DNA from: Halichondria panicea
Taxonomy: Eukaryota > Porifera > Demospongiae > Suberitida > Halichondriidae
Assembly: GCF_963675165.1 (NCBI RefSeq)
Contig: NC_087382.1
Coordinates: 5,185,963-5,249,962, forward strand
Direction: 5' to 3'
Length of the DNA stretch: 64,000 bases
Position numbers and translations under genes: made by a program. The notes under the pieces were generated by a model. The model was not told the origin of the DNA and ran no database searches. It saw only the letters and a program-made list of their open reading frames with translations. Positions 16,196 through 61,700 of this stretch are shown here, in pieces (positions within the stretch are counted from its first letter, which is position 1; every line of letters begins with the position of its first letter).

Positions 16196-19100
16196 GTGGA
16201 TATACATACGTCCTCAGTGGCAGCCTGTTTGCATGATGCACCACATTCCTCAACTATACTGATTGTTACTCTGATTCTCTCTGGCTTGAGATTGGTGATT
16301 TCGGAAACTTACTACATAGCGCCAGAAATTTATACCCGTGCATTTAATGGCTCTAGTAACAACACATTTTCGCTCGAGCTACTTATTCAACGAAACCAAT
16401 TTTCTAGCGGAGACAGTATGACTTTGATTTTTCTACCAGGGATTCATCCTCTTAGTCGTTTCCTTACAGTACAAAATTTCACATTTGTGCAGTTGATTGG
16501 AGAGGATAATTCAGTGATACTATTTAAGGGAAACAGTAGTATCCAATTTACTAGCATTGGTCGATTGAACATTCAAAATTTAAATTTTTCATCTGAAATT
16601 GGAACTACTTCGCAAGAAAAACTGACTATTAATGATGTGGCAAACTTTTCAATTTCGGAGTGCTATTTCTCGAGTTTTTCTGATAGCAGTCCTGCTTTAC
16701 TCTATATCAGAAACACACAAAACACTTCAATTGATCATGTTTCGTTCAAAAACAATCTTGCTAGAGCTCTGTATGTACAGTCTGGAAATGCAGTAAGAAT
16801 CACAAATAGTGTGTTCAAAAGAAACAGACATGATGTTGCTGTACAAAGATGCGGAGGATCAATCAAAGTGGATTCAACAAACATTGTCATATCGAAATGT
16901 ACATTTTTGAGAAACAATGCAAGTTATGGTGGAGCAATTTGTGCCCTTCCTCAATCTACTATGTCTATCTCAAACAGTGTATTTGACCGCAATAGTGCTT
17001 CTAAAGATGGTGGAGCTATTTATGTTCATTCTAGTGACGCATACATAACTGATAGTGAACTAACGAGTAACCGTGCAATGTGGGGCGGAGCGTTGTCTAT
17101 CTTTGATCAATCTAATGTGTCAGTTTCAAACAGTTCATTCAAAAACAACAATGCTACAAAATCTGGTGGAGGAATTTATGCTCGTTTTAGATATATATAT
17201 CGCTGATAGTGAACTGACCAACAACAATGCAACATGGGGAGGAGCGATTGTTATCTACAAACAATCGAATATGACGATCTCAAACAGTTTTTTGAAAAAA
17301 ACAGTGCCCAAAAGTTTGGTGGAGGAATTAATGCTCGTTCTAGTATTATATATATCACTGATAGTGAACTAACCAACAACAGGGCCACGCAGGGAGGAAT
17401 GATATTCATCTTTGATCAATCGAATATGTCAATATCAAACAGTTTATTCGAAAACAACAGTGCTTCCGAATATGGTGGAGGAATTTATTCTCATTCTAGT
17501 AACATATACATCGCTGATAGCAAACTAACAAGTAACAGTGCGAAATATACAGGAGGAGCAATCTACGCTGATGAGAGTAACAGCAAAATATTCTCGCTTT
17601 TCAAATGCAACATAACAAACAACAGTGCACATGATTGGGGTGGTGGCGTTTATTATTATGCCTGCAATGCCTACATCGTGAAAACAGTTATAAATGGCAA
17701 TAAAGCCGATTGGGGTGGCGGTATACACATGGAGTTGGGTACCCTTAACATATCTGAAAGTGAACTAACAGGAAATCGTGGTGATTATGTGGCAGCTATG
17801 TACTCCTATTCGAGTGTGTCTATCAGTGATACTGTCATCACAAATAACGTAGCGAAAGCTGGTGCTTTATTCATTCAGCAATCTGTTTTGACATTCCGAG
17901 ATACCAATGTTATCAGCGACAACAGCAAAAGCTCTATATACGCTCTTAACTGTGTAGTTAGATTTGATGGACCAACAAAACTCAATAATAATCACGGCAA
18001 TCTTGGTGGAGCCATCTTTGCTGTACAGAGCCAAATCTATTTTAACGCTGAAATTGGAAAAATTTTAATTGTGCAACAAAAGCTAATTTTGGAGGAGGAA
18101 TATTTCTGAGAGAAACCACGCTATTTGCAAAGTTCCAAAGTACAAATATTCAAGCAATGGAATGAAGACACGACTAGTGGAATATATGTAATGCTACACA
18201 TGGGAAATATTACAGCTCATTCCGGACATGGTGGAAGTATATACGTTGATGATAGTACAGAAATCGGTGGTACTTGTAGAGGTAGGATCACCAACGAATT
18301 GGCTCAGAGCGTTTTCTCTGAATGCTTCATTCAAACTCTCAATTTGTATGACTTGACTCCTTATAATGGCACAGTTTTTGTAAACACATTCCTCACAAAT
18401 AATACAGCCAAGTTCGGATCAAATGTGTATGGAGGTCTTCTGGATAGGTTCACACTCAACCCTTTCGCAGAATTCTATATAGCTTCAAATGGATTGGAAT
18501 ACTTCAGAAACACTTTCGAGTGATTTATCAGTTGCTTCAGACCCGGTGGAAGTAAGTTTGTGTAATGGATCCGAGAACAGTAGTGTGATTATCAGAGGAG
18601 GTATGCTAAAAGTGAATGTTATGGCTGTTGATCAAGTTGGAAATCCAGTTAATGCTACAATTCGAACCTCTGTTATCTCTAAAAGTGGTGTTGGTCGTCT
18701 CAAAGAAGGACAGACAGAACAAAGAGTTGGCAATCAGTGCACAGAAATAGAGTACAATGTATTCGCACAAGACATTGCTGCTCAAGTGGAACTCTATGCT
18801 GATGGTCCCTGTGCTAACCTTGGAAAGTCAACACAGAGTATAAGTATTATATTTCTTTCTTGTACTTGTCCTGTTGGTTTCCAACAAACCAATGATACAA
18901 TCAAATGCATTTGTGGCTGTGATCCAGATTTACAACAACATCAAATCTCCGAATGTTCTCATGATCAAGAAACAGTTCGACTCGAAACTAACATATGGAT
19001 AGGGGTTGATATTAGCACAACACTCAATATGACAAGCTACATAGTTAGCGACTGTCCATTTGATTATTGTGTAGAGAAACCATTTGATGTTGTTCTTGGC

Positions 19101-36425: not shown

Positions 36426-38663
36426 CTACTTACGAGTACATCTAAAAATGGATGGCCAAAATCTTTCGAAGTAATGTCCTTCCTCAGGATTTTGGTGATG
36501 ATCAACAAGTTTAATGGCATTCTCGTAGAAACGTTTAGGCCTTGAGAGAATTCTTGAGCGACTAACAGAAAATACAGCTCCGTACAAGCCCCTGGCATTT
36601 TGAGGATGAGAAACACCAAACAACGATTTCCAAAATTCTCCAACTGTCATATTATTACATTTGTTCAGATTAACCAACCATTTACCATAGTGATTTATTC
36701 TTCCCCAGGTATCAATACTACTCTTCATTTGAGCAAAAAATCCGTCATGTTGTGCCATATTCACAAACTCTTCCTGCATTCAGATGAACTCCAACGTACA
36801 TGAGTCTTGATTTCTCCTTGAAAGAATAAAGTGGTATCAGCTAGATGATCATAGTTGGTAATGATGTGGTAGAGAAATGTATGGCTTTCTCTTCCAACGT
36901 TTTGCAAGTTATCCCACGTACTAAATTTAATTATCGTGTTTTGACTGACAGTTTGACTACCTTTGTGGATAAACGTGGCAATGATCAGCATAGGGGTAGA
37001 GCCATGACAAATCCTCATTGTAATGAGAAACTACTATCTCGTAGTCCTTCCAGTTGATTACGCGTCTATCGGGTGCTTTCATCGAATTCACAAGGCTTGC
37101 ATTTGAATAAGTTTCTTCAGGAGTTCCAAATAGTATATAGTCGGCAATTTCCACGCCTTGCATGAGAGAATGGTCTTGATTGCTAACTTCGTATTTCCAT
37201 CCTCCAAATCGACCTCGAGAAAAAATGGACTTTGATTCTAGCCATGGTTGAATAGTGTTCAAATATTGGTCACGCTTCAGAAACGGTACAGGGTAGCCAT
37301 GTTCTAGACGCTTGTGGTAAGCGGACAACATTTCATAACCACCAATAAATCCATACTTTTTTAATGCTTCTATGGTCTGTTGAAGTAAAGAACCTGCTTC
37401 CCAGATTGATGGATATTTGACGTGTTTTGGTTCAGCTACTTCACACATTAGTGACCATACTTTACCGGGAGATGGCACGTTGTCGTCAGCGTAGTTTGAG
37501 AACACGGTCACTCGATAAAATGTACTGTCTACATCAGGAAAATAGATCCATGACTTATTGGCCAGGAGAGGGGGAGGTTGTCCTTTCAGTCCAATTCCGA
37601 TCACATGGGTGTGACTGTAGACAAACTTTTGTGAAAGTTCTTTCATTTTATGCACTTGTGAATCACTGTCTGTGACCATACTGAGCATGTCGTCAAGAGG
37701 TGCTGTGGATATTAGATGATCGTATTTCAGAGAATAGGTCAGGATCAGTTTTAACTATATAAATAGTTTTTTTTTCTGAATTAATGGACGACACTGTGTG
37801 ACCAAATCGGAACCACTGTTGAGGTATCAGTTTTGAAATACTCTCCCATATCTGTCCAGTTCCACCGAATGATGGAAATTCAAATATTTGATTTGGTCCC
37901 CAGCGAGTCGAGTCTTTGGCATCTTTGATATTCCCTTGATTCCAGTTCTTAATCTTCAGTTTTATGTCATCAACATGTGGAACAGCGACTCGTTCTCCTA
38001 CCCAATCAGAGTTCATTTCTTTTGGATCAACTGTCCACACTTTGCGATTGTACTTCTCATGAATACTTCACTTAATCCTTCTCCAAAATTCTTGAGCAGC
38101 CATTCATCAAAGTTTTGTGGTTTGGCCAAAATCGGATGAGCTTGGATCTTTTCCAGTCCCTTCAAACTCTCCTGTTGCTCTTCCTTATCAAAAACTTGAA
38201 TATTATGCTGCACAGGATATGGAATAAACGATCTGTTCCCACTCGATCCCATCATGTAAGCAAATGAGGCACGAGAACGATGGTTCCAACCTTTAACTGC
38301 TTTTTTCAAAAGTCTATCAAAGTAAGAGTAATGGGAGAAAACTACATGACCTCCATTATCCCATAAGAAGCCTTTGTCATCTCGATAGGAGCTAGCTAGT
38401 CCTCCTGCTTTCTGTTCTTTCTCTAAAATCAAAACTTCAATCAATCCATTTTCTCTGAACAAGTTTTCAAACAGTCTATACGCAGCTCCAAGTCCTGTTG
38501 GTCCAGCTCCAATGATTACTATACGTTGTTTACTTCTCAACTTTGGCAAAGGACCACGGAAAAATTTTTTATCATCTTGTGGTTGTTCCGTTAATTGACG
38601 TATTACAGCTGCAGAATGTAATGAAAGCTTTCTCAGTGCATATAATAATATAGTACTGTTCAT
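36426..38663 (-). CDS. glf: UDP-galactopyranose mutase fused to a DUF3431-like domain (intronless, frameshifted)
   Basis: Eukaryotic UDP-galactopyranose mutase interconverts UDP-galactopyranose and UDP-galactofuranose with a reduced FAD cofactor. After about 45 N-terminal residues comes the FAD-binding VIIGAGPTGLGAAYRL, then GGLASS, GGHVVFSHYSYFD, PYPVQHNI, YNRKVWTVDP with WVGERVAVP, FPSFGGTGQIW, SHTHVIGIGL, WIYFPD and the C-terminal SRGRFGGWKYEVSNQDHSLM, all in family order. Then EIVVSHYNEDLSWLYPY opens a second domain. It continues as NVGRESHTFLYHIITNYDHL and GLYGAVFSVSRSRIL, then GHYFERFWPSIF, which fits DUF3431, a family of unknown function. There is no intron over 2.2 kb. Four single-base shifts (near 38055, 37722, 36985 and 36785) interrupt it; conservation on both sides suggests assembly errors or very recent decay. 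Confidence 0.85.
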
Positions 38664-38889
38664 GGCAATGGTTGGCCTTTTCGAATTCTTCTCATGTCAT
38701 CAGCGTATTATTCCATGCATGACACCATTCAAATTACACATGTACACAGCAGAAAAATAAAACCAATTTAGGTGACACATTTTCATAGATAGATTTGTTT
38801 GCGATTTCACTGTTTAGCTTAAATCCTGCTCAAGTTGTGAAATTATTCATAGCAAGTAGTTTTAATGAGATTCATTGCATTTTCCAATT

Positions 38890-41865: not shown

Positions 41866-41871
41866 TCACTA

Positions 41872-42425
41872 TGTGTGTTCATCAGCCATTGCTGCATGTG
41901 TGCTTCTGACGAGTTTTATGTAGGCTACATAAATGGGGTCGACTTTGTCAGCGAGGAAAGAGTCTCTGAGGTGAATGCGTTGCTTGTCTCCCCTGGATTT
42001 GATATAGGGATGCATGGTTCCGGGGTCCACGACTACCACGATGCCAGTGACCAGCTGTTGCTCTTCCAATAGTGCCTTGGTGATGACAGGCACAATGTCC
42101 AGTGCTTCTCTCTCCTCTCCCGACAGCTCATGATCAGCATGTATGTGAATGTGTATTCATTTGGTATATATCATGAGCTGTCGGGAGAGGAGAGAGAAGC
42201 ACTTATATACGCAGTCAATTTAACGTCTGTACAGTATCTATTTTTGTACAAATTAAAGTTGTTCACATTTCCCATAAGCTTAAGTTTATATTTTTGCACA
42301 CATGCATGCATGCACTATATATAAATGTTTACGTAACGTTTCGTTGATGTGTAAGTTAGCTCACCTTCCAACAACATTGTGAGTGCGGACAGAAGATTCA
42401 ATATCACTCGGTTTGTAGCAGCTGC
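41872..42425 (-). pseudogene. Partial duplicate of the DIP2 3' end
   Basis: Positions 42130-41895 repeat the last DIP2 exon (GIVVVVDPGT, KQRIHLRDSFLA, VDPIYVAY) with the INSRGEKQ motif changed and no stop at the proper place. Positions 42420-42352 repeat the end of the preceding exon and its GTGAGC donor. The intron between is rearranged and contains a foldback. The parental exons are at 57482-57230 and 57818-57695. There is no promoter or upstream exon, so this is a dead duplicate. Confidence 0.75.
42110..42205. repeat. Foldback inverted repeat inside the DIP2 duplicate
   Basis: About 33-bp arms (GCTTCTCTCTCCTCTCCCGA on the left and its inverse TCGGGAGAGGAGAGAGAAGC on the right, both next to GCTCATGAT/ATCATGAGC) enclose about 30 bp. 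The left arm is exon sequence; the right arm is an inverted copy of it. Confidence 0.8.
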
Positions 42426-43011: not shown

Positions 43012-44942
43012 CTAAACAGGCTGTTCTTTAACGAGTCTACAAATGTCCCTGACAACTTCTAAGTCGCTGTGGATCTTAATGCACCCTCTCAGCAGGTATC
43101 GATAAGTGTCTTTGCGATTGGGCTCCCCACGGCCACAGTTGATCTCCTGCCATTTCAGAAGCATCTGATATCCTTTTGTGTGAGCGACGGTGAATCGAAT
43201 GTCGGTTTCAATGTTCTCCAAGTGTACTCTTGTCAGTCCAAGATAGTCGGCATACGTGGACCAGCTGTGCAGGTGCTGGGAGATGGGCAGTAGATGATCG
43301 TGGGAGCACGGCCTGTCCAGTTCTTGAATAGAGATTCCAACTTTTCTTGCCATGTTGTCGATTTGGACATCTGTACCTACATGTATAGAACAAAAACTTA
43401 TAACACGTCCACTGACTACATAAATGAAGGTAGTATATCGAAAGACATGCCAATACAGTACAATCAATCTGCTATAGCTATCAATTAAGGCTTACAGTCA
43501 ATGGCCGATGGTTGCATTGGCGTACTCAACCAGACAGTGTGACTTGGCTTGAGATCCCCATCTAGATCAAAATCTTCAGAACAGCGCCACAGTTTTGTCG
43601 ATACATGCATATCAGCAAAATGGCGTTTGCCTTGTTGTGTTGCTCCTTCGTGTGGGCAGAAGATGCTAATGACTGGCTTGTCGTTGTTGTAGTGAAGTGC
43701 ATCAGAAGCAGCATCTACACCTTCAAGGACACTGGATCTAACTAGAGGACACACGTTCGGAAGCACACGTGGTCGGGCTTTGACATGGACTTCAATACAA
43801 GAGAACGAATCAATGAGAGTGACTGAACCAGGTTCTTTAGGCAGTCGAAATTTGACACAGTTCCTGGCAAGAAGAACTGGCTCTCCAGAAGGAAGACACA
43901 CTTGCCACCCACACTTCTTCATTAGGAACACCACCAAACAACAGAAGACCCCACATCGAATACAGCCACTGACGAATCGGATCAGAAGAGGATCAGCTGA
44001 GGAAGTGAATACACGATGGTGCTCTAACTCAGAGGGTGGAACAGATCTGAGGAGACTGGGCATGAGAAACTCCACTTGAGAGAAGGAGCAATCAATTTGA
44101 CCAAGTAGTGGGATGGTGATAGGGGCTATTATCAGAAGCTCCATCATGATTGCTATCATATCGGCAGGTGTGAAGATGCCATCTTCGTAATGCTTCTGGA
44201 ACTCTTTCGATTCGAGCATATCAATAGTGACAATGCCTCGATCACTGAACTTTAGCCATTTCGCAGCCTTGGCAGAAGTAGAATGAGGGCATGTAACATC
44301 CCTCAGGGAGACAGCATATTCAGTGAGCTCACTGACCTTGTCTAGTGGGACTTGAGGATCCACAAACACAGTGTCGGGCAGGATGTGTGGGTAGTAGTGG
44401 ACAATGCACATGTCATTGAAGTAATCGAGCGCAGCATCCAATGCAGATGGATCAAATCCAAGCTGTTGAGCCAAAGCGATGCACTCACTCTTACTAAGTA
44501 TACCTCTTTTCATGATATCGCAGAGCTTTTGTAGAGCTAATTCCAAGATGAACCACCACAGGGGAACTTTGAGGTCGAAAGTAGGTGAGTTTTCCACTGC
44601 TTTTCGAATTTCTTTGGCAACCTCTTGTGCATTTTTGTCACGACTGCAAGCATTGACGGCAAATATCACATGTTTCAATGGCAGATTGCTGTAGATGACT
44701 TCTTGTTTCAGTTCAAGAGGCAAAGCATCAAGCAAAGCTTGGTTTTTCTCGTCAATAACTTCTTGATCTTTGATTTCGTCGAAGAAAGTGCCCACAAAGA
44801 TGGGGCGTGGTGTGTGCCCATCCTTCTTGCAGGAGAGAAAGGATCGCAGTAAACTCATGTTGGTTTCCAGATACGAGAGGTGAGATTGATATGTGTCTGT
44901 GTATACATTTTTCCCAGGATATTGTACAAACAGAATAAAATC
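43012..44942 (-). CDS. Roc/COR-like GTPase-Death domain protein, 3' part
   Basis: Two exons, 44942(or 44896)-43496 and 43376-43012, joined by a 119-bp GT-AG intron (donor GACT-GTAAGC, acceptor ATGTAG) that keeps frame. The first exon carries the end of a G domain with a G4-like motif VGTFFDE (usual Asp kept, Thr-His-Lys altered). A COR-like region follows (LDYFNDMCIVHYYP, VFVDPQVPLDKVSELTEY), then a long conserved extension. The second exon is a Death domain (WSTYADYLGL, YQMLLKWQEINCG, LEVVRDICRLV). Such proteins are thought to act in innate immune or death signalling, an inference from domain content. The P-loop exons expected upstream were not found between 44942 and 48630, so the 5' end is incomplete. 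Both candidate acceptors of the first exon need a phase-1 partner. Confidence 0.75.
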
Positions 44943-48629: not shown

Positions 48630-48768
48630 CTTGTTTTCTACGTGACTGCTCAGATTCATCAGATTTCCCTCTCAGCTGCTTATCAATGCATGCAAGTTCT
48701 GTCTCCAGATAATGTTTTCGTTCATCAGAGGGTGAGCTCTGTAGCTCCCGTAGCAACTCACCCATTCT
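48630..48768 (-). CDS. Coding exon downstream of the microexon array (46 codons)
   Basis: Acceptor TCATTGTAG then AGAATGGGTGAG, open for 46 codons plus one base to a GTAATG donor after ACAAG, so it enters in phase 0 and leaves in phase 1. The peptide RMGELLRELQSSPSDERKHY continues through LETELACIDKQLRGKSDESE to QSRRKQ. It is strongly charged and helical-looking; I recognise no family. Its phase-0 entry matches the phase-0 exit of exon 1 at 54911 and of all seven microexons between. Its phase-1 exit is compatible with the Roc/COR-like exon at 44942 or 44896, but that link is untested. The internal ATG offers an alternative start. Confidence 0.6.
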
Positions 48769-49104
48769 CTACAATGAGATATCATTGAGACGAGGATAAG
48801 AGTTATAATGTAAAAGGTGAATGAGGTCAGAGTTCAAGTGGTTGCCAGCTTCGGAGGAGTGAGGACACAAATAACCTTATAATTATAGGCATTAATCATA
48901 ATCTTTTAATGCCATTCTTGGATACGCCCACTCATGTGACCAAAGCTGATTGCCACATGAGTGGGTGTGACCAATATGCAGAGTTATAAGTGTGGAAGGT
49001 TAATTTTCCCACTCCTGGTAAAGCTTTATACATGCAGCTCTTTTCTGGCTCAGGCTATCCTAGCGCTTTAGTGCAAGGTTTGTGCAAACAGATGATGCTA
49101 CATG

Positions 49105-49261
49105 TACCGTATAGCGGGTATATTTCGAGGGTATAAATTCTCGCGGAAATGCTTTTCATTTTTGTGGAATAGCAGCCTTTTTACAGCGGTTATAAATGCT
49201 CACCATACATGCTTATAATCCACGAAAACCACGAACATTTATACCCTCGAAATATACGGTA
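49105..49261. mobile_element. GTATAGCGGG MITE in array unit 1
   Basis: Left end CCGTATAGCGGGTATATTTC intact, right end shortened (AATATACGG). The same insertion is present in unit 2 (50510-50666) and unit 3 (51987-52540), so it predates the tandem duplication. Confidence 0.7.
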
Positions 49262-49573
49262 TATACGCGTGACTCTGAAGATACGTATGCAACATGCAGC
49301 CTTCACTGTGATAACTCCAGAAAGAAGCATTAGGTTGCAAATCCACGAAAATAAAGAGAATGGCTAAAAGCCTATAATATTATAGAAGAGCTGTTAGTTT
49401 TCATCGTTGAGCAGTTACAGCTGGTAACATTAAATTTTATCAATCATGCAAACAGATGATATCAATTAAAGTGAGGAATGTAATTTGTTATGCAGACATG
49501 TAAATAGATGCTACAATGAATAACGTATCAAGTGAACACATGTAACGTCATTATACGGCTGTTTACAACTTAC

Positions 49574-49579
49574 CGATAG
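49574..49579 (-). CDS. Candidate microexon m1 (6 nt, LS)
   Basis: On the - strand: acceptor ATTGACTGATTAG, core CTATCG, donor GTAAGTTG. Two codons, phase 0. Upstream pyrimidine-rich TATTTTCTTCC supports the acceptor. Confidence 0.45.
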
Positions 49580-49892
49580 CTAATCAGTCAATGGAAGAAA
49601 ATACACGAAACAACCAAGTAAAACGGAACCTCTCAAAATGTACATCATTGATGAAATTTATTGTAGCAATTAAATGCTATCAACTAAATTGAGGTATTTT
49701 CTGGTATGTACAGTTACAGATGCCACAATGAAGTACACGTCAACTTCAGACGAGAACAATAAATCATAGATGCATAGTTCCAACAATAATAAATGTAGCC
49801 CTATGAGGTATCATTAGTAGACAGATGCTACAATGAATAATGTATCAAGTGAACACATGTAACGTCATTTTCTACAGCTGTTTACAACTTAC

Positions 49893-49901
49893 CGAATTTA
49901 T
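49893..49901 (-). CDS. Candidate microexon m2 (9 nt, INS)
   Basis: Acceptor CACTGACTGATTAG, core ATAAATTCG, donor GTAAGTTG. Three codons, phase 0, no stop. Confidence 0.5.
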
Positions 49902-50509
49902 CTAATCAGTCAGTGGCACATGTGAGGGAAGAGAATAGAACACATGAAACAACTAAAATTCATCAAAGTACAGCGGAACCAATATGTAAATGTATTAAAT
50001 CAAATTGCAGCTATACATCGAAGAATCTATTTTCTCAGATACACTGAATAAATCCCACAAGCACACGAGTTCGTTATGCTACAAGGTATGCTTTGCTTCA
50101 GTCAAAAGTGCTAGATTGTTACTTCAATCCAATCTTGATTATTCAATGTTAGATTGAAAAATAAGGCCTCCTTCATAGGCCTAGAAAATAACAAGGAGAG
50201 GAAGTTGGTGTGGAGACGAGGATAAGAGCTAAACATTTTATTGTAAAAGGTAGATGAGGTCAGAGTTCAAGTGGTTGCCAGCTTCGGAGGAGTGAGGACA
50301 CAGATAACCTTATATAGGCATTAATCATTAATGCGGATATGCCCACTCATGTGACCAAAGCTGATTGCCATATGAGTGGGTGTGACTAATATGCAGAGTT
50401 ATAAGTGTGGAAGGTTAATTTTCCCACTCCTGATACTTGCAGCTCTTTTCTGGCTCAGGCTACCCTAGCGCTTTAGTGCAAGGTTTGTGCAAACAGATGA
50501 TGCTACATG

Positions 50510-50666
50510 TACTGTATAGCGGGTATACTTCGAGGGTATAAATTCTCGCGGAAATGCCTTTCATTTTTGTGGAATAGCAGCCTTTTTGCAGCGGTTATAA
50601 ATGTTTGCCATTCATGCTTATAATCCACGAAAACCACGAACATTTATACCCTCAAAATATACGGTA
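50510..50666. mobile_element. GTATAGCGGG MITE in array unit 2
   Basis: Same position and same shortened right end as the copy at 49105. Confidence 0.7.
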
Positions 50667-50981
50667 TATACGCGCGACTCTGAAGATACGTATGCAACAT
50701 GCAGCCTTCACTGTGATAACTCCAGAAAGAAGCATTAGGTTGCAAATCCACGAATATAAAGAGAATGGCTAAAAGCCTATAATATTATAGAAGAGCTGTT
50801 AGTTTTCATCGTTGAGCAGTTACAGCTGGTAACATAAAATTTTTATCAATTATGCAAACAGATGGTATCAATTAAAGTGAGGAATGTAATTTCTTATGCA
50901 GACATGTAAATAGGTGCTACAATGAATAACGTATCAAGTGAACACATGTAACGTTATTTTCTACAGCTGTTTACAACTTAC

Positions 50982-50993
50982 CATTCCACCATT
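50982..50993 (-). CDS. Candidate microexon m3 (12 nt, NGGM)
   Basis: Acceptor CACTGACTGATTAG, core AATGGTGGAATG, donor GTAAGTTG. Four codons, phase 0, no stop. Confidence 0.5.
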
Positions 50994-51322
50994 CTAATCA
51001 GTCAGTGGCACATGTGAGGGAAGAAAATATATGAAACAACCAAGTAAAGCGGAACCTCTCAAAATGTACATCATTAATGAAATTTATTGTAGCAATTAAA
51101 TGCTATCAACTAAATTGAGGTATTATCTGGTATGTACAGTTACATATGCCACAATGAAGTACACGTCAACTTCAGACGAGAACAATAAATCATAGATGCA
51201 TAGTTCCAACAATAAATAGCCCTATAATTATGTGGTATCATTAGTGTAGATAGATGCTACAATGAATAACGTATCAAGTGAACACATGTAACATCATTTT
51301 GCTACAGCTGTTTACAACTTAC

Positions 51323-51334
51323 CGATAGCTTTTT
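51323..51334 (-). CDS. Candidate microexon m4 (12 nt, KKLS)
   Basis: Acceptor CACTGACTGATTAG, core AAAAAGCTATCG, donor GTAAGTTG. Four codons, phase 0. Its last six bases equal the whole of m1. Confidence 0.5.
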
Positions 51335-51986
51335 CTAATCAGTCAGTGGCACATGTGAGGGAAGAGAATAGAACACATGAAACAACTAAAACTCATCAAA
51401 GTACAGCGGAACCTCTCAATTAATAATCAATATGTAGATGTATTAAATCAAATTGCAGCTATACATCGAGGAATATATTTTCTCAGACACGTAGCAAGAT
51501 GTTACACTGAAAAATCCCACAAGCACACGAGTTCGTTATGCTACAAGGTATGCTTTGCTTCAGTCAAAAGTGCTAGATTTTTACTTCGATTATCTTCCAT
51601 GTTTGATCGAAAAATAAGGCCTCCTCCACAGGCCTAGAAATTAACAAGGAGAGGAATTTGGTGTGGAGACGAGGATAAGAGCTAAACATTAATTTTTATT
51701 GTAAAAGGTGGATGAGGTCAGAGTTCAAGTGGTTGCCAGCTTCGGAGGAGTGAGGACAAAAATAACCTTATATAGGCATTAATCATGACCTTTTCTTGGA
51801 TCTCATGTGACTAAAGCTGATTGCCACATGAGTGGGTGTGTCCAATATACCGAGTTATAAGTGTGAAAGGTTAATGTTGTCCACTCCTGGTAAAGCTTTC
51901 TTTATACATGCAGCTCTTTTCTGGCTCAGGATATCAAAATATAGCTAGCGCTTTAGTGCAAGGTTTGTGTGAACAGATGATACATG

Positions 51987-52540
51987 TACCGTATATAGCG
52001 GGTACCGTATATGCTTGATCAGGAGCCGCGGCTACTAAATGTTTCATTTTGCTGGAAGAGGAGGCTACAATTCAAGAGAGGCCACTGTTCAAGAGCGGCG
52101 TTTATTAGCTCCAGATAATTTAGTTTGTCATCAAAAGTTGTTTTCACCTGCATAAACTTGAACTCTGCCATGAGAAAGTCTTTGTGAAGCACTAACAAGC
52201 TGCTACTTGTAGCTACGTACATGTAGCTAGCTGCTAGTAATAATTTTTTTGGCTGCCACGTGCAGAAATGCTAGAGTCAAAGTTCACTGAGGCTACTATT
52301 TGAGAGCGGCTACTAAATGTTTCATTTTGCTAGCAAGGGAGGCTACTATTTGAGTGCGGCCTTTATACAAGAGCGGCCTCTGATCGAGCATACACGGTAT
52401 ATTTCGAGGGTATAAATTCTCACGGAAATGCCTTTCGTAATTTTGTGGAATAGCAACAGCGGTTATAAATGTTCACGGTACATGCTTAATCCGCAAAAAC
52501 CACGAACATTTATACCCTCGAAATATACCCGCTATACGTA
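51987..52540. mobile_element. GTATAGCGGG MITE of array unit 3, split by another MITE
   Basis: Outer ends CCGTATATAGCGGGTA and ATATACCCGCTATACG. Here the right end retains the CCCGCT lost in the copies of units 1 and 2. The interior is interrupted at 52005-52397. Confidence 0.7.
52005..52397. mobile_element. Nested TA-target MITE (393 bp)
   Basis: Ends CCGTATATGCTTGATCAGG and CTGATCGAGCATACACGG with TA at 52003-52004 and 52398-52399. Interior carries two direct repeats beginning GGCTACTAAATGTTTCATTT. Absent from units 1 and 2, so it inserted after the array formed or only in this unit. Confidence 0.75.
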
Positions 52541-52852
52541 TACACACGATTCTGAAGATACGTACTGCAACATGCAGCTTTCACTGTGATAACTCCAGAA
52601 AGAAGCATTAGTTTGTAAATCCACAAATATTATAGAGAATGGCTAAAAACCTATATAGAAGAGCTGTTAGTTTTCATCGTTGAGCAGTTACAGCAGAGCT
52701 GGTAAATTAAGTTTTATCAGTTATGCAGACAATTATTAGCGATTAAACTGAGAAGTCTAATTTCTCATGCAGACATGTAATTAGACGCTACAATGTATAA
52801 CGTATCAAGTAAACACATGTAACGTCATTTTCTACAGCTGTTTACAACTTAC

Positions 52853-52864
52853 CATTCGCTTATA
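52853..52864 (-). CDS. Candidate microexon m5 (12 nt, YKRM)
   Basis: Acceptor CACTGACTGATTAG, core TATAAGCGAATG, donor GTAAGTTG. Four codons, phase 0, no stop. Confidence 0.5.
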
Positions 52865-53174
52865 CTAATCAGTCAGTGGCACATGTGAGGGAAGAAAATA
52901 CATGAAACAACCAAGTAAAGTGGAACCTCTCAAATTAAATTGTAGCCATTACATGGTATCAACTAAAATGAAGTATTTTCTGGTATGTACAGTTACAGAT
53001 GCCACAACAAAGTATATGTCAACTTCAGACGAGAACAATATAGATCATGGATGCATAGTTCCACAACAATAAATGTAGCCCTATGTGTGGTATCATTAGT
53101 GTAGATAAATGCTACAATGAATAATGTATCTTGAACACATGTAACGTCATTTTCTACAGCTGTTTACAACTTAC

Positions 53175-53183
53175 ATAACGTCT
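53175..53183 (-). CDS. Candidate microexon m6 (9 nt, RRY)
   Basis: Acceptor CACTGACTGATTAG, core AGACGTTAT, donor GTAAGTTG. Three codons, phase 0, no stop. Confidence 0.5.
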
Positions 53184-53296
53184 CTAATCAGTCAGTGGCA
53201 CATGTGAGGGAAGAGAATAGAACACATGAAACAACTAAAACTCATCAAAGTACAGCGGAACCTCTCAATTAATAATGTAATCAATGTAATCAATGT

Positions 53297-53629
53297 ACCG
53301 TAATTTATCGGAAAGCAAAAATTGGAAATTGTCCGGGTATAATTGAAACAGATTTTTATAGAGCATGCAATTAGAACAAGCAAGCAGCTGCATGCGAGCT
53401 AGCTAAGTTTAATAGAACAGTGTGCGACTGAATAGTTGCACTATAGCTAGCTACTCAAAGCTATCTATAACTGCAGCACTCTAAGTCTTTCTTGCCGTCT
53501 ATGAAGAATGTAACTCAACTTTTCAAGGTATTGTCAGGATATTTAATTAAAGCACAGGATGTCCGTTGTATTAGAACAAATGAATGAAAATTGCCCAAAA
53601 GAGTGTCCGATAATTTAGAAGATATACGG
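53297..53629. mobile_element. TA-target MITE in array unit 3 (333 bp)
   Basis: Ends CCGTAATTTATCGGA and TCCGATAATTTAG, the right side continuing to GATATACGG; TA at 53295-53296 and 53630-53631. Not present in the other units. Confidence 0.65.
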
Positions 53630-54379
53630 TAATTAATTAACAAATAGCAGCTATACATCGAGGAATCTATTTTAATTCTTAGACATGTAGCAGGATGCTA
53701 TATACACTGAATAATCCCACCACGAGTTCGTTATGCTATACAAGGTATGCTTTGCTTTGGTCAAAAGTACTAGATTGTTACTTCAATCCAATCTGATTAT
53801 CTTCAATGTTAGAATGAAGCATAGAGATGATTTTGCCTCATTAACAAGAAGAAGAAGTGGGCGTGGGGACGAGGCTTTAAGAAAAGGGTGGATGAGGTCA
53901 AATTTAAAGTTGCCGTTGATTCTAGGTTTAATTTTGTCCACTCCTGATATACATGCAGATCTACTCTGATTGTTGTAGCTATTAAATAGCTATAGCGCTT
54001 TAGTGGAAGGCTAACACGAATAGAAAGTTTGTGTGAACAGATGATGCTATACACACGATTCTGAAGATACGTACTGCATGTACATGACATGATTGCTGCT
54101 CTAAACCACACCCAATTCAGTAAAGTCCAGGAACAAGCTATAGTCCGTCTAGCTAGGCTACAGCAGCCCTGTCCTGTATCCGTCCCTAAAGAAAACCTCT
54201 GAAAAGAGGACAAATGCTCTGCTCCCAAACTGTCCTTCATTCGGAGGTTGCACTCTTTAATAGTTTCTGAGATTTTTACGCAGTTATAGATACTACAAAT
54301 AAGTACACCTCAACTTTGGACGAGAGAACACAATGTTAATATCTTCTATTGCTGCTTACAACTCAGTTACCCGACGAAC

Positions 54380-54512
54380 CGTGTATAGTGCGTATATTTC
54401 GAGGGTATATAATTGCGGTTTTCGCTGATTAAGCATGCATACTGCAAAGGCTGCTGTTCCGCGAAACTTCTTTATTTCCGCAAAAGTTTATATACCCTCG
54501 AAATAATTATAT
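54380..54512. mobile_element. GTATAGCGGG-family MITE beside a decayed module
   Basis: Ends GTATATTTCGAGGGTATATA and TATATACCCTCGAAATAATT. It sits where the acceptor side of a further microexon-type module would be expected (donor-like GTAACT at about 54375 on the - strand). Confidence 0.6.
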
Positions 54513-54587
54513 CTACAAAAAGTACAACACCTCAACTTTAGACGTAAGAACACACTGATCTTCTATTGCTGCTAATATACGACTTAC

Positions 54588-54608
54588 CCAAAGCTGCTGA
54601 CGCTTCGA
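54588..54608 (-). CDS. Candidate microexon m7 (21 nt, SKRQQLW)
   Basis: Acceptor CACTGACTGAATAG lies directly upstream and donor GTAAGTCG directly downstream. Seven codons, phase 0, no stop. This is the longest and most diverged member and the nearest to exon 1, so it may be the ancestral exon. Confidence 0.55.
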
Positions 54609-54910
54609 CTATTCAGTCAGTGGCACATCACATGTGAGGAAAGAGAATAGAATACATGAACGAACTCTGATCCATGAAAGGACAGTAATTGATTCTCTAA
54701 ACACGTTACACAGGTAGGCCATGACTACGAGCATAGATTACTGACAGTTCTATCTATGGTACGAGTGACTATAGATCTATCAAACGTATCTACACTGACC
54801 AATCATGTCAAACCTATAGTACATGCAGTATCATAATGACATGAACATATCACAGTATCATAATGACCTTCTGAATAGTCTATTCTGATAATAAATATTA
54901 ATCAGCTCAC

Positions 54911-54958
54911 CTCATCCTCGGAGTTAGAGTACCCTTCTTCCATTGCTTCAGTCGCCAT
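54911..54958 (-). CDS. First coding exon of the microexon-array gene (16 codons)
   Basis: ATG at 54958 opens MATEAMEEGYSNSEDE, ending exactly at a GTGAGC donor in phase 0. A 5' UTR segment with ATTTTCAGTCAAGACA precedes it, so the ATG exon may itself begin at an acceptor 8 bases upstream. The peptide is acidic. A diverged copy of this exon and its surroundings lies at 63688-63720 with the same phase and donor, which supports it being a real exon. Confidence 0.6.
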
Positions 54959-54964
54959 TGTCTT

Positions 54965-57229
54965 GACTGAAAATAGTTTATTGTTCTTCTAGATTCTTAG
55001 GGGGCGGGGCTGGTGGTCAGAAGGTTCCCCCTCTAGCTCTTTGGCTCTTGAGCTCAGCTCAGCAAAGGTGGGTGTTTGAGTGAATAAGAACATAGATAGA
55101 AAGTGTAGACAGAACAAGATCATATAAATGGTATGGCCAAGAGGGTCAGTGACTCATCCTATCAGTATGGAGAATGAAAAATTTTTTTTGTAAGAGGCTC
55201 ACAATACGTGTTGGCCAACACGCTGGGAACTTCTCACGACGTGCTCTGAACTGCAACCTCGCGATGTGTTCTCACTACACGCAGCGAGAACACTTGATGT
55301 GTACCTATATAGCCATGCATGTGACGTGGCTGCAATGTTTGAGGTGGATACTAGATACTCTTAGACCATTCCAGCTGATACTCAAGTTTCTGGTCCACCG
55401 CATTATTGCTATACTATTATACTACGCATGCGCACAATGGTGTGATAACTATATATAGATAATTATAATAAATTATTCATTTGCAAAAAATTTATAATGA
55501 ATGATTCTTATAGCAATTTCGCTACCTTGCCCGATTCACGTGCAGATTTCTGCAACACTGACCTCAACTTTGGCCTTTTTTCCCCATTGGTGACCCAATC
55601 CAATACCCCATCATGCATGGCAGTGAAATCCCTCCCCTTTTCACATAATGGTGAACCCCGGTTACATGGCATCAATTTTAGCAACTTGGCAACTCCATAA
55701 TTATTTAGTCAATAGCAGGTAAAGGGGCAATGACAATCATGACAAACGTGTCCCACCCGCATGGAACTGATTCTGCTATATATGCTGTAAAAGACAGAAT
55801 AAGAATTTATTTGTAGCCTGCCATTCTAGGTACATGCACTCCTGCTCAGCACCACCATACTCAGCATTAAAGTAAGAGATGGATTACAACATGTGAGGTG
55901 AAAAGCAAAGAATGCATGACATTGTAATAGTGAGAAGTTTAGGTTTTAGAATGCAACTCTGAATTTGCTGTTGTTAATTTTCTCCTTTTCATACTGGCAT
56001 TCAGACAGAGAGCTGCATGCCATTCTAGCATAAGTACCTGCTCAACCCCATCGTACTCAGTATATACAGAATCGAAAAATCAGATTGATCGAGAATCAGT
56101 ATCCGCCATTGTTTTGCTCATGTGATTTTGTTCTTACTACGCGGTGTGTGGATTTGATTGGGAACCCATCGCATGACTCAGTTCAGGACACGTCGTGAGC
56201 AGCTCAGAACGTGTTTTGTGAGCCTCCTCATTCAGCAATCCATACGCGCGTGGTAGGAAAGACGCAACACACGTAAGACAAAGACTGCCAGCAATTTTTC
56301 AAGTCAGTGCATGAAGCCGCTCAGTCTGCACATAGTCAAAGGTCAATGAGTGCTTGTCTGAATCCTTTTGTTGAATTACGAATGCAAACAAGAATTCATT
56401 GACTTTTTACTTTGTGCAGACTGAACACACTTGAAAAATTGCTTTGCCCTCGATTTGTTTTTCCTCTACTGCGTGCATTGAACTTGCTTGCTGCAAACAG
56501 TTAATTGTGCCAGTGTATATATATAGCTAGCTATAGTTTGTTATTGTGTGCTACATGTAATTCGCTTGAAAAAAGATCGATGCTCATGGAGCACTGATTC
56601 ACCTCGTGAATTGAGCAGCGGAAAATGGTACCGTAATGACAATTATGAGGAATATGATCGTGAATCTATAAAGCAACGACTATATATTAATTTATTTTAT
56701 CGCCTTCGAAGATCGCCTATACAAGCTTAAGTCTATATAGCTATAGCTTCAACTATACTGTCTCATTATATAGCAGTCCTTGAAACGTTCACTCAAACAG
56801 CTCATTTTTGTGTCCACACACAAACGGACAATCACTCTACCCTATATAGGCCTGCTGCGCATGCACGGGGTAATTATGATAATTATCTTGTCATACAATC
56901 AAAGTAAATAACTCCATGCAGGTCCATAAATTATGTGCATGCAAATACTTTATTTATAGCGTGTGTACATAAGTATAATTTATATACATTATAATCACAC
57001 CATTTCATTTGATACACTTATAAGAAACCCCCCCCCCTCTGTTCACATGTTTCAAAGTATACACAATAATAAAGCAGTAAAGCAGACAGTGCATACAACT
57101 ATTGTGAGCATGTACAACAGTGTAGGCGATACTCTAAATACAAACTACTGAGCTGCACACATAAAGAAAATATATTGTGGTGGATGAAACATAAAGTGCC
57201 TGTAACTACAATTAACAGACGAGTTTTGG
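54965..57229. other. Intergenic, with an inverted repeat pair
   Basis: No gene seen. Segments at about 55185-55290 and 56120-56250 are inverted relative copies (AGGCTCACAA, CTCACGACGTG, CTGAACTG, CGCGATG or CGCATGA) and bound about 1 kb, possibly an old element. Within it TGCCATTCTAG is repeated near 55820 and 56020. Confidence 0.4.
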
Positions 57230-58670
57230 TTACAAATTGTAGGCTACATAAATGGGGTCGACTTCGTCAGCAAGGAAAGAGTCTCTGAGGTGAATGCGTT
57301 GCTTCTCTCCTCTGGAGTTGATGGGGATGGTTCCGGGGTCCACGACTACCACGATGCCAGTGACCAGCTGTTGCTCTTCCAATAGTGCCGTGGTGATGAC
57401 AGGCACAATGTCCAGTGCTTCTCTCTCCTCTCCCGACAGCTCAGCCACCACCACCAGCAGGCGATTGGACGAGAATACAGCACTGTATGCGAGTGGGTGT
57501 ATAAGTGAGGGGGTGTATGTGAGTGTATGTGAGTGTATGGGCATGCATGTCTTAGTACAGTCATGTTATGAAGTACTTCTTTTTAATTTTTGTTGACATA
57601 ATTATTTTAGCACACATTCATAACTACATATGTACTGTACGTTTTGTTTATGCGTGGCCACATACATGTACTACTTGTATAGGAGTTAGCTCACCTTCCA
57701 ACAACATTCTTGTGACTGCGGACCACAGAAGCTTCAATATCAGCAGGGTGGTATCGGAACCCTCTAATGTTCAGAGCCTCATCCAACGCCCCCACCACAT
57801 ACACACTGTCGTAGTTAGCTGAAGGGAGGAGGGTGTAGTGATACAATAGTATACTGTGCATATAGCACAGATATACAGCTAGGGACGTAGCCACACTGTA
57901 CACTCAACCGATTGCCTATTTGATTTCTATAGTACCAAAAGCTATGAAAAGTAGCAATCCAATGGCAGAGGTCTATGCTCTATTAACACATGCAATCTAT
58001 TTGTATGTGAGCTTGACAGCTGATAATTTGCGGAGAATCTCACCTCCCTGCCTGTCAGTCTTCTCTGACTTCATCATAAAGCCGAGGTAGCCAGTACGGG
58101 CGTAGTGGACACTGGTGTCCCCTCCACCCTGCACTACTGTCTTGAAGTGCTCCCGAGACAAGGCATCATTGATCTCATCCTTGAGCCCGTAATAACCACT
58201 GCCATTGTGAGGACTGCTCACCCAAATCTATAATTGATTATACATGTACTGCAACTCGTATATAGCCGTACATGTAGGGCATATACATGGTTGTACTTTC
58301 ATCACACAGAGTACATGTACAAGTAAGTACAATAATTAACACACTGTCATAATTATACATGTATGTACACTTCTAACTGCCTATAGAAATCTGCTACTCC
58401 ATTCGATCACACCCACATAAAGAACACCCACCTCTCCCAGGTCCGTGTGGGCACAAGGAATTTTTGTATCTGGGTGGACAATGGTCAACTTCACATCAGG
58501 GAGAATCTGGGGATCAGTCAGCATAATTATTTCGTGATATTTATACAACGCAAATCTAATATTGTACGTGTACATGCACATGTGTTTACGGGGATATACA
58601 TGTACATGTATTATTGACCTTTTCTATTAAAGGTACATGTACATGATGATGCATGTAAATGTGTATGTCT

Positions 58671-58713
<43 letters not shown>

Positions 58714-61700
58714 ATGACTGACCTTCCCACACTCCATTAAACAGACACTGTGAGGAGCCCCCCTCTCTAGCACAGTCACCCTATCCACTCTCAGAGCACG
58801 CTGGTCCACATACACACTGGACGGCTCGGGGTGCTGGGGACCTACAGGGTGGGGGGAGCGCATCGTATAATCTGAAAAATAGTTGTGAACGTACATGTAC
58901 CTACATGTATACCATAATAGCAAGACTCAGTCTGACTGCAATGAAATATGAGTACTAATGCTGATTGATATTGCTATCCCTGTTATATATGATAATGAAT
59001 CAAAGCTAGTTGCTTTAAATATAGCAATAGTAAGTAGAGACCTGCAAACAGCAGATAATTACACACAGAATTGCCACCGCAGCTCCACCAACATAAAAGT
59101 CACTATAATTACACATACACACATACGTGACCCCACCTTGTAGACAGATGACAGAGTTGACTCGACAGCCAAACGAAGCACTGACTGTATGTGACGCTAG
59201 TCCGAGGGGGCTAAACAAGGCAGCAAAGGACGAGAGGAGGGAGGTCCTGGGTCGCTCCTCACTCACCACCACACACGTACGAACCACCGACAGGTCAATG
59301 CCCCGAGTCTGGAGAGAGAGAGAGAGAGAGAGAAGAGTCAACGTGTTAATTCTGTACAACCACGTCATGAATATCTCTAGCATACTGCATGCATGCAGTT
59401 AACATGAACTCTTTCTACCTTTAATGACTCTGTGCTGCTGCCCAACTCTCTACAGCAGATGTCAATGGTGGCATAGGAAACGTATGTGTCTCGAACTGTG
59501 TGTACGTGTGTGCGCACAGGGTACAAATAAAAGCAATACATGTATAGAGCATACAATATGATTATCATCACACAAAGCAGTGTGCTGTGCTTAGTCAGCA
59601 GAGGTCATCATAACTCTCTCACCTTTGTTGTTGCTGACCACGGACAACCAGAGGATAGGGTTCAGCTCGAGGTCGTACGGGCTGATCAAGAAAGTGTGGT
59701 GACCAGCATACACTCTGAAGGGGAAAATGATCCGAGAGTAAAATGTAACATGATCTACCAAATTTTTAGCCATACCATTAGGCTTTAAAAATAATTCGTT
59801 GCATAAATGGTGTAATGCATGTACATGTAACACAGACTATACATGCTCAGTTCATAAATAACTCCGCGGTATCTGAGAAGTACGTGTACTGCAACAGGTG
59901 CAAGATTAGGTACTTGTAGCTCACCCAGACATAGCCCAGAGCAGTAGCCCCAGGCCAGAGTAAGGGTCCAGACACAGGGTCACCTCTCTTGAGGGGTACA
60001 GCTCACAGATGTGCTTGTGGGCCCGACACATGCCCATGATCGCAGCATGGGATACCTGTCATAGCAGCACTCAAGGTAACAGCATGTAGTGTGTATATTC
60101 AATGTTAGTAACACATACACGTGTGCATGTACGTGTACATACAGTCTGTATTGTACAACAAATTTAGCTTGAGCGCACATCAATACTTTTCCCAAGCTGT
60201 ACTTTATGTATATATACACAGAAGGTAAAACAATGTACATCAGCAATTCGACCGCAAATAGACTACTGCTAATGATGCATGTAGCTACATACATGTACAA
60301 CCAACAGATCAACAAGTAAATGTCCAGCATTTACGGATAGTCGGCACGTATACATACGTAGTAGTGATACATGCATGCACGTACACGTGTACAATAATTA
60401 GCGTACCTTGACCCCTGACAGGACTCCAGTGGTGGAGACACTGAAATCAAGGTAGGCTATCAGTTCTGCGGTGGGTGGTTTGTAGTACTTCTCTATCTTC
60501 TTCTTGGGTAGGTCATCAGTGACCATCAGGGGAGGGATGGTCTTAAAGTCAAGCATCGGAGCAGCCTCCTTCGACTTGAGGATTCTGTAGTATATACACA
60601 AAACACAAATAAGTAAATTAGTTTGTAGCTTAACATTACTTTCATACTCTATACTGCAAAAGAAAATGTAGCATAAGACTCTGTAAGTCCTGAGGAATGT
60701 CTTTCACTAAACTTAATTTATGGGACCAGTCCAGTATAACTGTTGTATTTAAGGGAAGGCTAGAGCTATACGGTTAGACAATTAACTATAGCTAAAAACT
60801 TTACTACATGTACGTGGAAGCATGATCGAGTTATATCAGTTTACAAAAGCTTACCGTTCACTATAGTGCATGAACACAAGCTTGTAAGACATGCAGACTC
60901 ACTTGAGGACAATGTTGGACGAGAGTATGGCTCGAGAGTTACTGATCTGCAGAGTCAGCTTAATGGTGGGCAGACTACCAGGGAGGTTGGTCATGAGGGG
61001 GGGTCGGATAATGACAGGGACCATCCCCACGTACAGGCAGCCATAGAACGCTGCGATGAGCTCAATACCAGGTGGGTAGAGGAGGGCAATGTGGTCACTA
61101 GAGTTGAGCCGAAGCTTGTCCAAGATGAAGGCACCGATACGTTCAGCACGCTTGTGGAGATTGATGCAGTTCATGGCTCGCAAAGAGTGGCCCTGAAAAG
61201 AAACAAGGAGGACGATTAAAACAAAGACTATACAATGCCATTAAAACAGACTGCTACGTAAGATGTATAAACAACGTAGAACAGCAGTAGAAATTGTAGT
61301 ATAAGTACTGTACTAGTATTGATCATGGGAGATTTGGGGCTGTGCAGAAGTTAATATCGAAATTATGTTGTAATACTACATGCACTTCTCACCCTATTGT
61401 CTAGTAGACTGTTGTCTGGCTGAGTCTGTGCCCTCCAGCGGAGGACCTCCCCAAGATTCTGGAACTTGCCAGCTCCGTCACCATCGTCATAAGGGAGGTT
61501 GAACGCCTGGCCGGTTATGTCAGCCACTCGACCCGTCACCAGATCTCCTATCAACTGGGCGGCTCCGGTCACAGCTACATGTACAAGGGGGTGTGGTCAT
61601 ACGAGTGCTTCATCTAGTGCGCTAATCTGAGATGCTCGCAGAACATTTGTTAAAGCAAAACGAAGCATAACATTCTACACATCTCAAATTCCAATTAAAA

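Follow-up and report, generated by a model that had tools for sequence, protein, structure and literature searches.

What are the seven very short, exon-like segments that lie in a row inside the first coding intron of a sponge gene, and are they part of its protein? The question is raised by a 64-kb stretch of the genome of Halichondria panicea (contig NC_087382.1, here C6; C6:5185963-5249962), which we call the window; positions below are window coordinates unless C6 is given. The host is probably a GTPase-COR-like gene with a Death-like exon, of the ROCO (Roc-COR) family. Each of the seven segments (hereafter cores) measures 6-21 nt and is enclosed between a splice acceptor and a splice donor, the three together forming a module. 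We found a second array of the same build in a neighbouring paralogue, and its cores differ from those of the window far more than the surrounding introns do, while keeping the reading frame. We consider it probable (about 0.6) that the cores are coding microexons, which would form a fast-diversifying linker near the N-terminus of the protein.

Anatomy of the array

An earlier note on this DNA had described exon 1, seven modules and exon 2 on the minus strand, and this description proved exact to the base, including the acceptors, the donors and the core lengths of 21, 9, 12, 12, 12, 9 and 6 nt. The features are, in transcript order:

54911-54958, minus strand: exon 1, MATEAMEEGYSNSEDE; donor GTGAGC, phase 0; a paralogous exon 1 exists in the second copy
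54588-54608, minus strand: core of module 1 (M1), 21 nt, SKRQQLW
54359-54370, minus strand: donor remnant of a decayed module, GTAACTGAGTTG
53175-53183, minus strand: core of module 2 (M2), type A, 9 nt, RRY
52853-52864, minus strand: core of module 3 (M3), type B, 12 nt, YKRM
51323-51334, minus strand: core of module 4 (M4), type A, 12 nt, KKLS
50982-50993, minus strand: core of module 5 (M5), type B, 12 nt, NGGM
49893-49901, minus strand: core of module 6 (M6), type A, 9 nt, INS
49574-49579, minus strand: core of module 7 (M7), type B, 6 nt, LS
48630-48768, minus strand: exon 2, RMGELLRELQSS...RRKQ; entered in phase 0 and left in phase 1; the boundaries in a paralogue match a RefSeq protein

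Every module is built in the same way: an acceptor rich in pyrimidines, with CACTGACTGATTAG or a variant at its end, then the core, then a GTAAGT donor. The donors are strong and the pyrimidine tracts long at all modules, and the flanks are alike from one module to the next. Positions and phases together give a row of small exon-like cores of the same phase at one site near the N-terminus. With up to three mismatches, the acceptor 14-mer has 17 matches in the window, compared with a mean of 7.9 and a maximum of 14 in 100 shuffles; the seven module sites carry no mismatch or one, and a single site outside the modules (24004, plus strand) also carries one. When both strands of the 64 kb were scanned for a pyrimidine-rich acceptor followed after 3-30 nt by GTAAGT, with thresholds chosen post hoc for an array already known, the seven modules were the only sites returned.

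Modules 2 to 7 alternate between two types, A and B, whose starts lie 319-341 nt apart. An A/B pair and the long intron behind it form a repeat unit of about 1.4-1.9 kb, which had gone undescribed in the earlier note. Modules 3, 5 and 7 are each followed by an intron that holds a foldback element (52396-52538, 50522-50672 and 49117-49267).

A second array in a tandem paralogue

The genome (131 Mb, 39 contigs) was searched for further modules, only the best candidates being scored. A 166-nt module probe gave 14 matches. Half of them fall in the window; the other seven, at C6:5261795-5267169, form a new array 26 kb off, belonging to a tandem paralogue that has an exon 1 and an exon 2 of its own. 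Its cores read SKLQQFL, ERV, NYQP, RGH, NELL, SNIA and LS (21, 9, 12, 9, 12, 12 and 6 nt). The M4 and M6 cores each differ by 3 nt in length between the arrays, in opposite directions, despite which the cores add up to 81 nt in either array. The earlier claim had been one of in-frame cassettes at a single site of a protein: the in-frame, microexon-like cores stand, and all seven cores of the second array are in frame too, most of them with a different sequence; their use as cassettes, with the up to 128 forms supposed in the note, is a matter of inclusion, weighed below. Both copies also carry an additional, decayed module between M1 and M2, likewise new. It has no proper acceptor, and the second copy retains its GTAAGTTG donor, 14 nt after the nearest TAG; this is a single case and does not amount to a control set. 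Positions 56963-60347, upstream of the gene, share 92% identity with the sequence that precedes the second paralogue, as a tandem duplication of roughly 26 kb would lead one to expect.

The pattern TGATTAG-N(3-27)-GTAAGTTG has 21 exact matches in the genome and its reversed control has seven. The two arrays hold 11 of the 21, all with gaps that are multiples of three; the gaps of the other ten are 6 (four copies of one sequence), 7, 7, 9, 13, 14 and 18 nt. An exact pattern search in the viral_contigs and genome_contigs collections, which hold no sponge genomes as such, gave no match. An origin of the modules from a dispersed repeat was considered and rejected: all 14 probe matches fall inside the two arrays, and only the foldback element is dispersed (694 first-look candidates genome-wide, 51 matches listed).

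Divergence of cores and flanks

The five pairs of cores of equal length differ at 22 of 60 sites, against 48 of 821 sites in the flanking sequence up to 60 nt from the cores, taken over all seven pairs (Fisher 3e-11). The flank difference of 5.8% compares with 7.7% over the complete alignment, which runs from exon 1 to exon 2; the flanks are thus barely slower than the alignment as a whole, and constraint on them does not account for the contrast. Three cores lie at the extreme of ungapped intron windows of their own size: M2 (7/9 sites) in the top 0.3%, M3 (6/12) in the top 1.4% and M5 (5/12) in the top 2.2%. Because the modules are mosaics, the test was redone between partners with the nearest flanks, which gave 25 differences in 70 core sites and 140 in 1905 flank sites (8 pairs of the 12 modules M2-M7; these pairs share modules and hence are not independent). 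A tree of the modules from flanks only was set aside, as 250-nt flanks overlap where an A module adjoins a B module, and because of the mosaic make-up of the modules.

Conservation of the reading frame

In both arrays every core, 14 in all, has a length divisible by three and contains no stop, and any subset of the cores preserves the frame. Our own parsimony count puts the length changes that the 14 require at five or more. Of the 98 gaps between the two arrays, just 20 have a length divisible by three, a rate at which five frame-keeping changes would arise by chance with a probability of about 4e-4. A run of 54 codons without a stop has P = 0.016 in shuffles of the core letters.

The host gene and its paralogues

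Exon 2, left in phase 1, fits a downstream exon with P-loop GTPase-like and COR-like parts in the second and third paralogues. Two further exons of the gene were recognised in the window:

43496-44896, minus strand: truncated GTPase-COR exon, P-loop part deleted; 5' candidate acceptor and 3' GTAAG donor placed by eye
43012-43376, minus strand: Death-like last coding exon; Pfam Death at 17.7 bits, below the cut-off of 22.6; 5' boundary placed by eye

The Death-like exon is found in the second copy as well, at 93% identity, and the GTPase-COR exon of that copy is open, with no stops. The COR exon is under purifying selection (ratio of non-synonymous to synonymous divergence, dN/dS, 0.27-0.35) and is open in both array-bearing copies. 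Exon 2 is looser, with a dN/dS of 0.84 between the two array-bearing copies and 0.47 in the other two comparisons. An 897-bp element with inverted ends (AGTCTGCCCTAAGACCCC) lies at C6:5267481-5268376, and a 99.8% identical copy stands about 3 kb further upstream.

The third paralogue is represented by a RefSeq protein, LOC135337779 isoform X2 (2064 aa). Its upstream exon (C6:5408661-5408882) joins exon 2 in phase 0, which bears out the phase-0 start given to exon 2 in the earlier note, and the predicted phase-1 junction of exon 2 with the GTPase exon is present too; the protein has no microexons. BLAST finds no array-like flank in the first intron of this paralogue, a search that covers array-like sequence, and unrelated microexons could remain there. 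The protein also carries an immunoglobulin (Ig) domain. Its first half matches Roc at 24.9 bits (cut-off 27) and its second half, which is not the half homologous to the window's exon, matches COR-A at 40.6 bits (cut-off 35.3). The isolated COR exon has no Pfam match above the cut-off; the family was placed through this RefSeq relative. A PDB sequence search with the COR exon gave weak matches to small GTPases (best E 0.24). The third paralogue's GTPase-COR exon was modelled with AlphaFold from 47 sequences (46 of 120 listed proteins plus the query exon); the model has a mean predicted local distance difference test score (pLDDT) of 81 and a predicted template modelling score (pTM) of 0.84.

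The family is large, with 79 matches when 62 of 295 first-look candidates were scored. Relatives of the third paralogue's N-terminal exon occur at C6:5618576-5640916 and on C16, C9 and C1, some of them where open frames exceed 1000 residues; this N-terminus may be common to several gene families. One protein related to the sponge family, at 34% identity, is filed under a bacterial metagenome-assembled genome (a Cycloclasticus symbiont of a sponge) and probably represents host DNA in the bin.

Probable coding microexons and the alternatives

If the cores are coding microexons, the locus may have evolved as follows. The first coding intron of a GTPase-COR/Death gene would have been enlarged by repeated local duplication of a two-microexon unit (A, about 300 nt, B, then the dispersed foldback element), the array growing by such duplication and by exchange between modules. 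Each core would be a phase-0 exon of 2-7 residues, so that up to 27 residues would be added between the short N-terminus and the exon-2 segment that precedes the GTPase. Diversifying selection on the cores, and not on the introns, would then turn this site into a fast-changing linker or binding segment. Given that the cores are spliced in, we put the odds that different transcripts take different subsets at about even, and variable inclusion thus claims about half of the probability of coding use.

Several observations weigh against coding use, against selection as the cause of the divergence, or against both. Among cluster representatives within the length range searched, none of 69 candidate proteins bears a core or exon 1, and a second search aimed at the N-terminus gave one match among 66, which is the third paralogue, without cores. 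M1 (4/21 sites, P 0.21) and M7 (0/6) show no excess of core divergence, and the M6 cores, when compared as nearest-flank partners, differ in length only (0/9 sites). With a neutral difference of 0.20-0.24 per site, which is about what the COR exon shows at synonymous sites (dS 0.20-0.29), the core excess becomes weaker (P 0.002-0.02). The modules have exchanged sequence between positions, and the cores are therefore not independent. The window copy lacks the first ~223 residues of the GTPase-COR exon, P-loop included: its match starts at residue 224 of the paralogue's exon, and at the break (44893-44904) about 1.3 kb of the third paralogue, with the P-loop half, are gone. The candidate acceptor at 44896 would hold the frame with exon 2; with its P-loop part lost, the window copy may be no working gene. 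In the second copy, the transposon-like 897-bp insertion ends about 23 nt before the ATG.

Three of these points would suit gene copies in decay, whose cores drift while the frame is kept by inheritance and chance: the P-loop half is lost in one copy, a transposon-like element sits just before the ATG of the other, and no core-bearing protein was found. Drift, however, predicts that cores change no faster than introns, and they differ far more; the length changes of the cores remain multiples of three, and both copies have an open COR exon, constrained at the dN/dS given above. We regard decay as unlikely. The frame also speaks against the idea that the cores are never kept in messenger RNA and that the modules serve splicing itself, as decoys or as stops for recursive splicing of a long intron. 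Recursive splice sites have an acceptor and a donor back to back, which the modules resemble, and flanks that are alike around cores free to vary would fit such a use. Yet 14 of 14 cores are stop-free multiples of three, which would be pointless if they were discarded, and the known ratchet points carry, to our knowledge, no core. We regard this idea, too, as unlikely.

Two other possibilities grant that the cores are coding. In one, all seven would always be joined, giving a fixed linker of 27 residues that evolves fast without any splicing diversity; it has the first half of our preferred reading in common. All modules have strong GTAAGT donors and long pyrimidine tracts, which would suit constant inclusion, as would the core total of 81 nt maintained through opposite length changes in M4 and M6, whereas the third paralogue's RefSeq protein has no insert at the junction, which makes the insert dispensable within the family. 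Such constitutive use is possible, though we would not expect it. In the other, the cores would be mutually exclusive alternatives of the Dscam type, one per transcript; tandemly duplicated units with diversified exons recall such a system, but core lengths spread from 6 to 21 nt do not, and we think it very improbable. The most far-reaching version of the preferred reading, microexons included variably, is a hypervariable, repeat-borne array that would give each animal many short N-terminal variants by combinatorial splicing, in a GTPase-COR/Death gene of innate-immune type, with cores arising by duplication of the unit and selected for being different. We hold this to be doubtful.

Relation to known systems

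The earlier note knew of no described system like this one. That statement was too broad: troponin T and the schistosome micro-exon genes (MEGs) are precedents for rows of small exons of the same phase. The 5' exons of troponin T are very small, and we know of no near-identical intron blocks around them. According to excerpts of a paper on the fast skeletal gene, TNNT3, its 5' exons 4-8 are alternatively spliced and of the same phase, and titles of 1985 and 1986 cited there speak of combinatorial splicing and of an unusual interspecies divergence of troponin T exons (PMC2447309). The likeness to the sponge locus is the row of small same-phase exons near the N-terminus; the difference is that troponin T is a vertebrate muscle gene in which splicing is established, whereas the array is known from DNA alone.

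MEGs, as described in excerpts of two papers, have exons of very small size, from 6 bp upwards and in most cases a multiple of three in length, that make up most of the coding region and are held to vary the proteins by alternative splicing, and their products have signal peptides (PMC4350168, PMC10526429). The 14 sponge cores, as read in the genome, are equally small and all multiples of three. The array is, however, a single insert of 27 core residues next to exons of hundreds of codons, and the start MATEAMEEGYSNSEDE has, by eye, no hydrophobic stretch, unlike the signal peptide of a MEG. If its cores are spliced in, the sponge array would act in the manner of troponin T and the MEGs, but it is not a MEG, because most of its gene lies in large exons.

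The alternative exons of Dscam form tandem clusters; they are large, mutually exclusive and code for parts of Ig domains. In Dscam, an excerpt of PMC5465998 states, alternative exons diversify one protein. The sponge cores would do the same, with 6-21 nt each against the large exons of Dscam. As to the ROCO family, probably that of the host, the likeness would lie in the GTPase and COR-like regions, with a Death-like exon here; the host differs in its array, which is absent from the RefSeq third paralogue and whose modules match nothing else in the genome.

In the literature on microexon arrays or clusters, positive selection and tandem duplication, judged by titles and the openings of abstracts, no such array is described, and near-identical intron blocks bearing cores that differ in almost every copy do not appear. 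Rows of small in-frame exons are already known; as far as those titles and abstracts go, what is new is the combination of near-identical intron blocks with diversified microexon cores.

Other features of the window

Three features lie away from the array. An open frame at 38013-38696 (minus strand) resembles flavin amine oxidases (Pfam Amino_oxidase, E 1e-10), another at 41869-42156 (minus strand) matches a DIP2-like AMP domain (E 1.2e-6), and a tandem repeat with a 156-nt unit in 3.8 copies occupies 16951-17541.

Implications

Were the cores spliced in, the locus would be an example of exons that escape annotation, as the failure to find a core-bearing protein suggests. It would then also show how a string of exons of 2-7 residues arises by the copying of intron blocks and subsequently diversifies in frame, in a sponge gene family that resembles those of internal immune signalling, and it would allow the idea of microexons as variable elements that evolve fast to be put to the test. 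Should the doubtful combinatorial version be true, the array would be a device that generates diversity both by splicing and in the germline of an early-branching animal.

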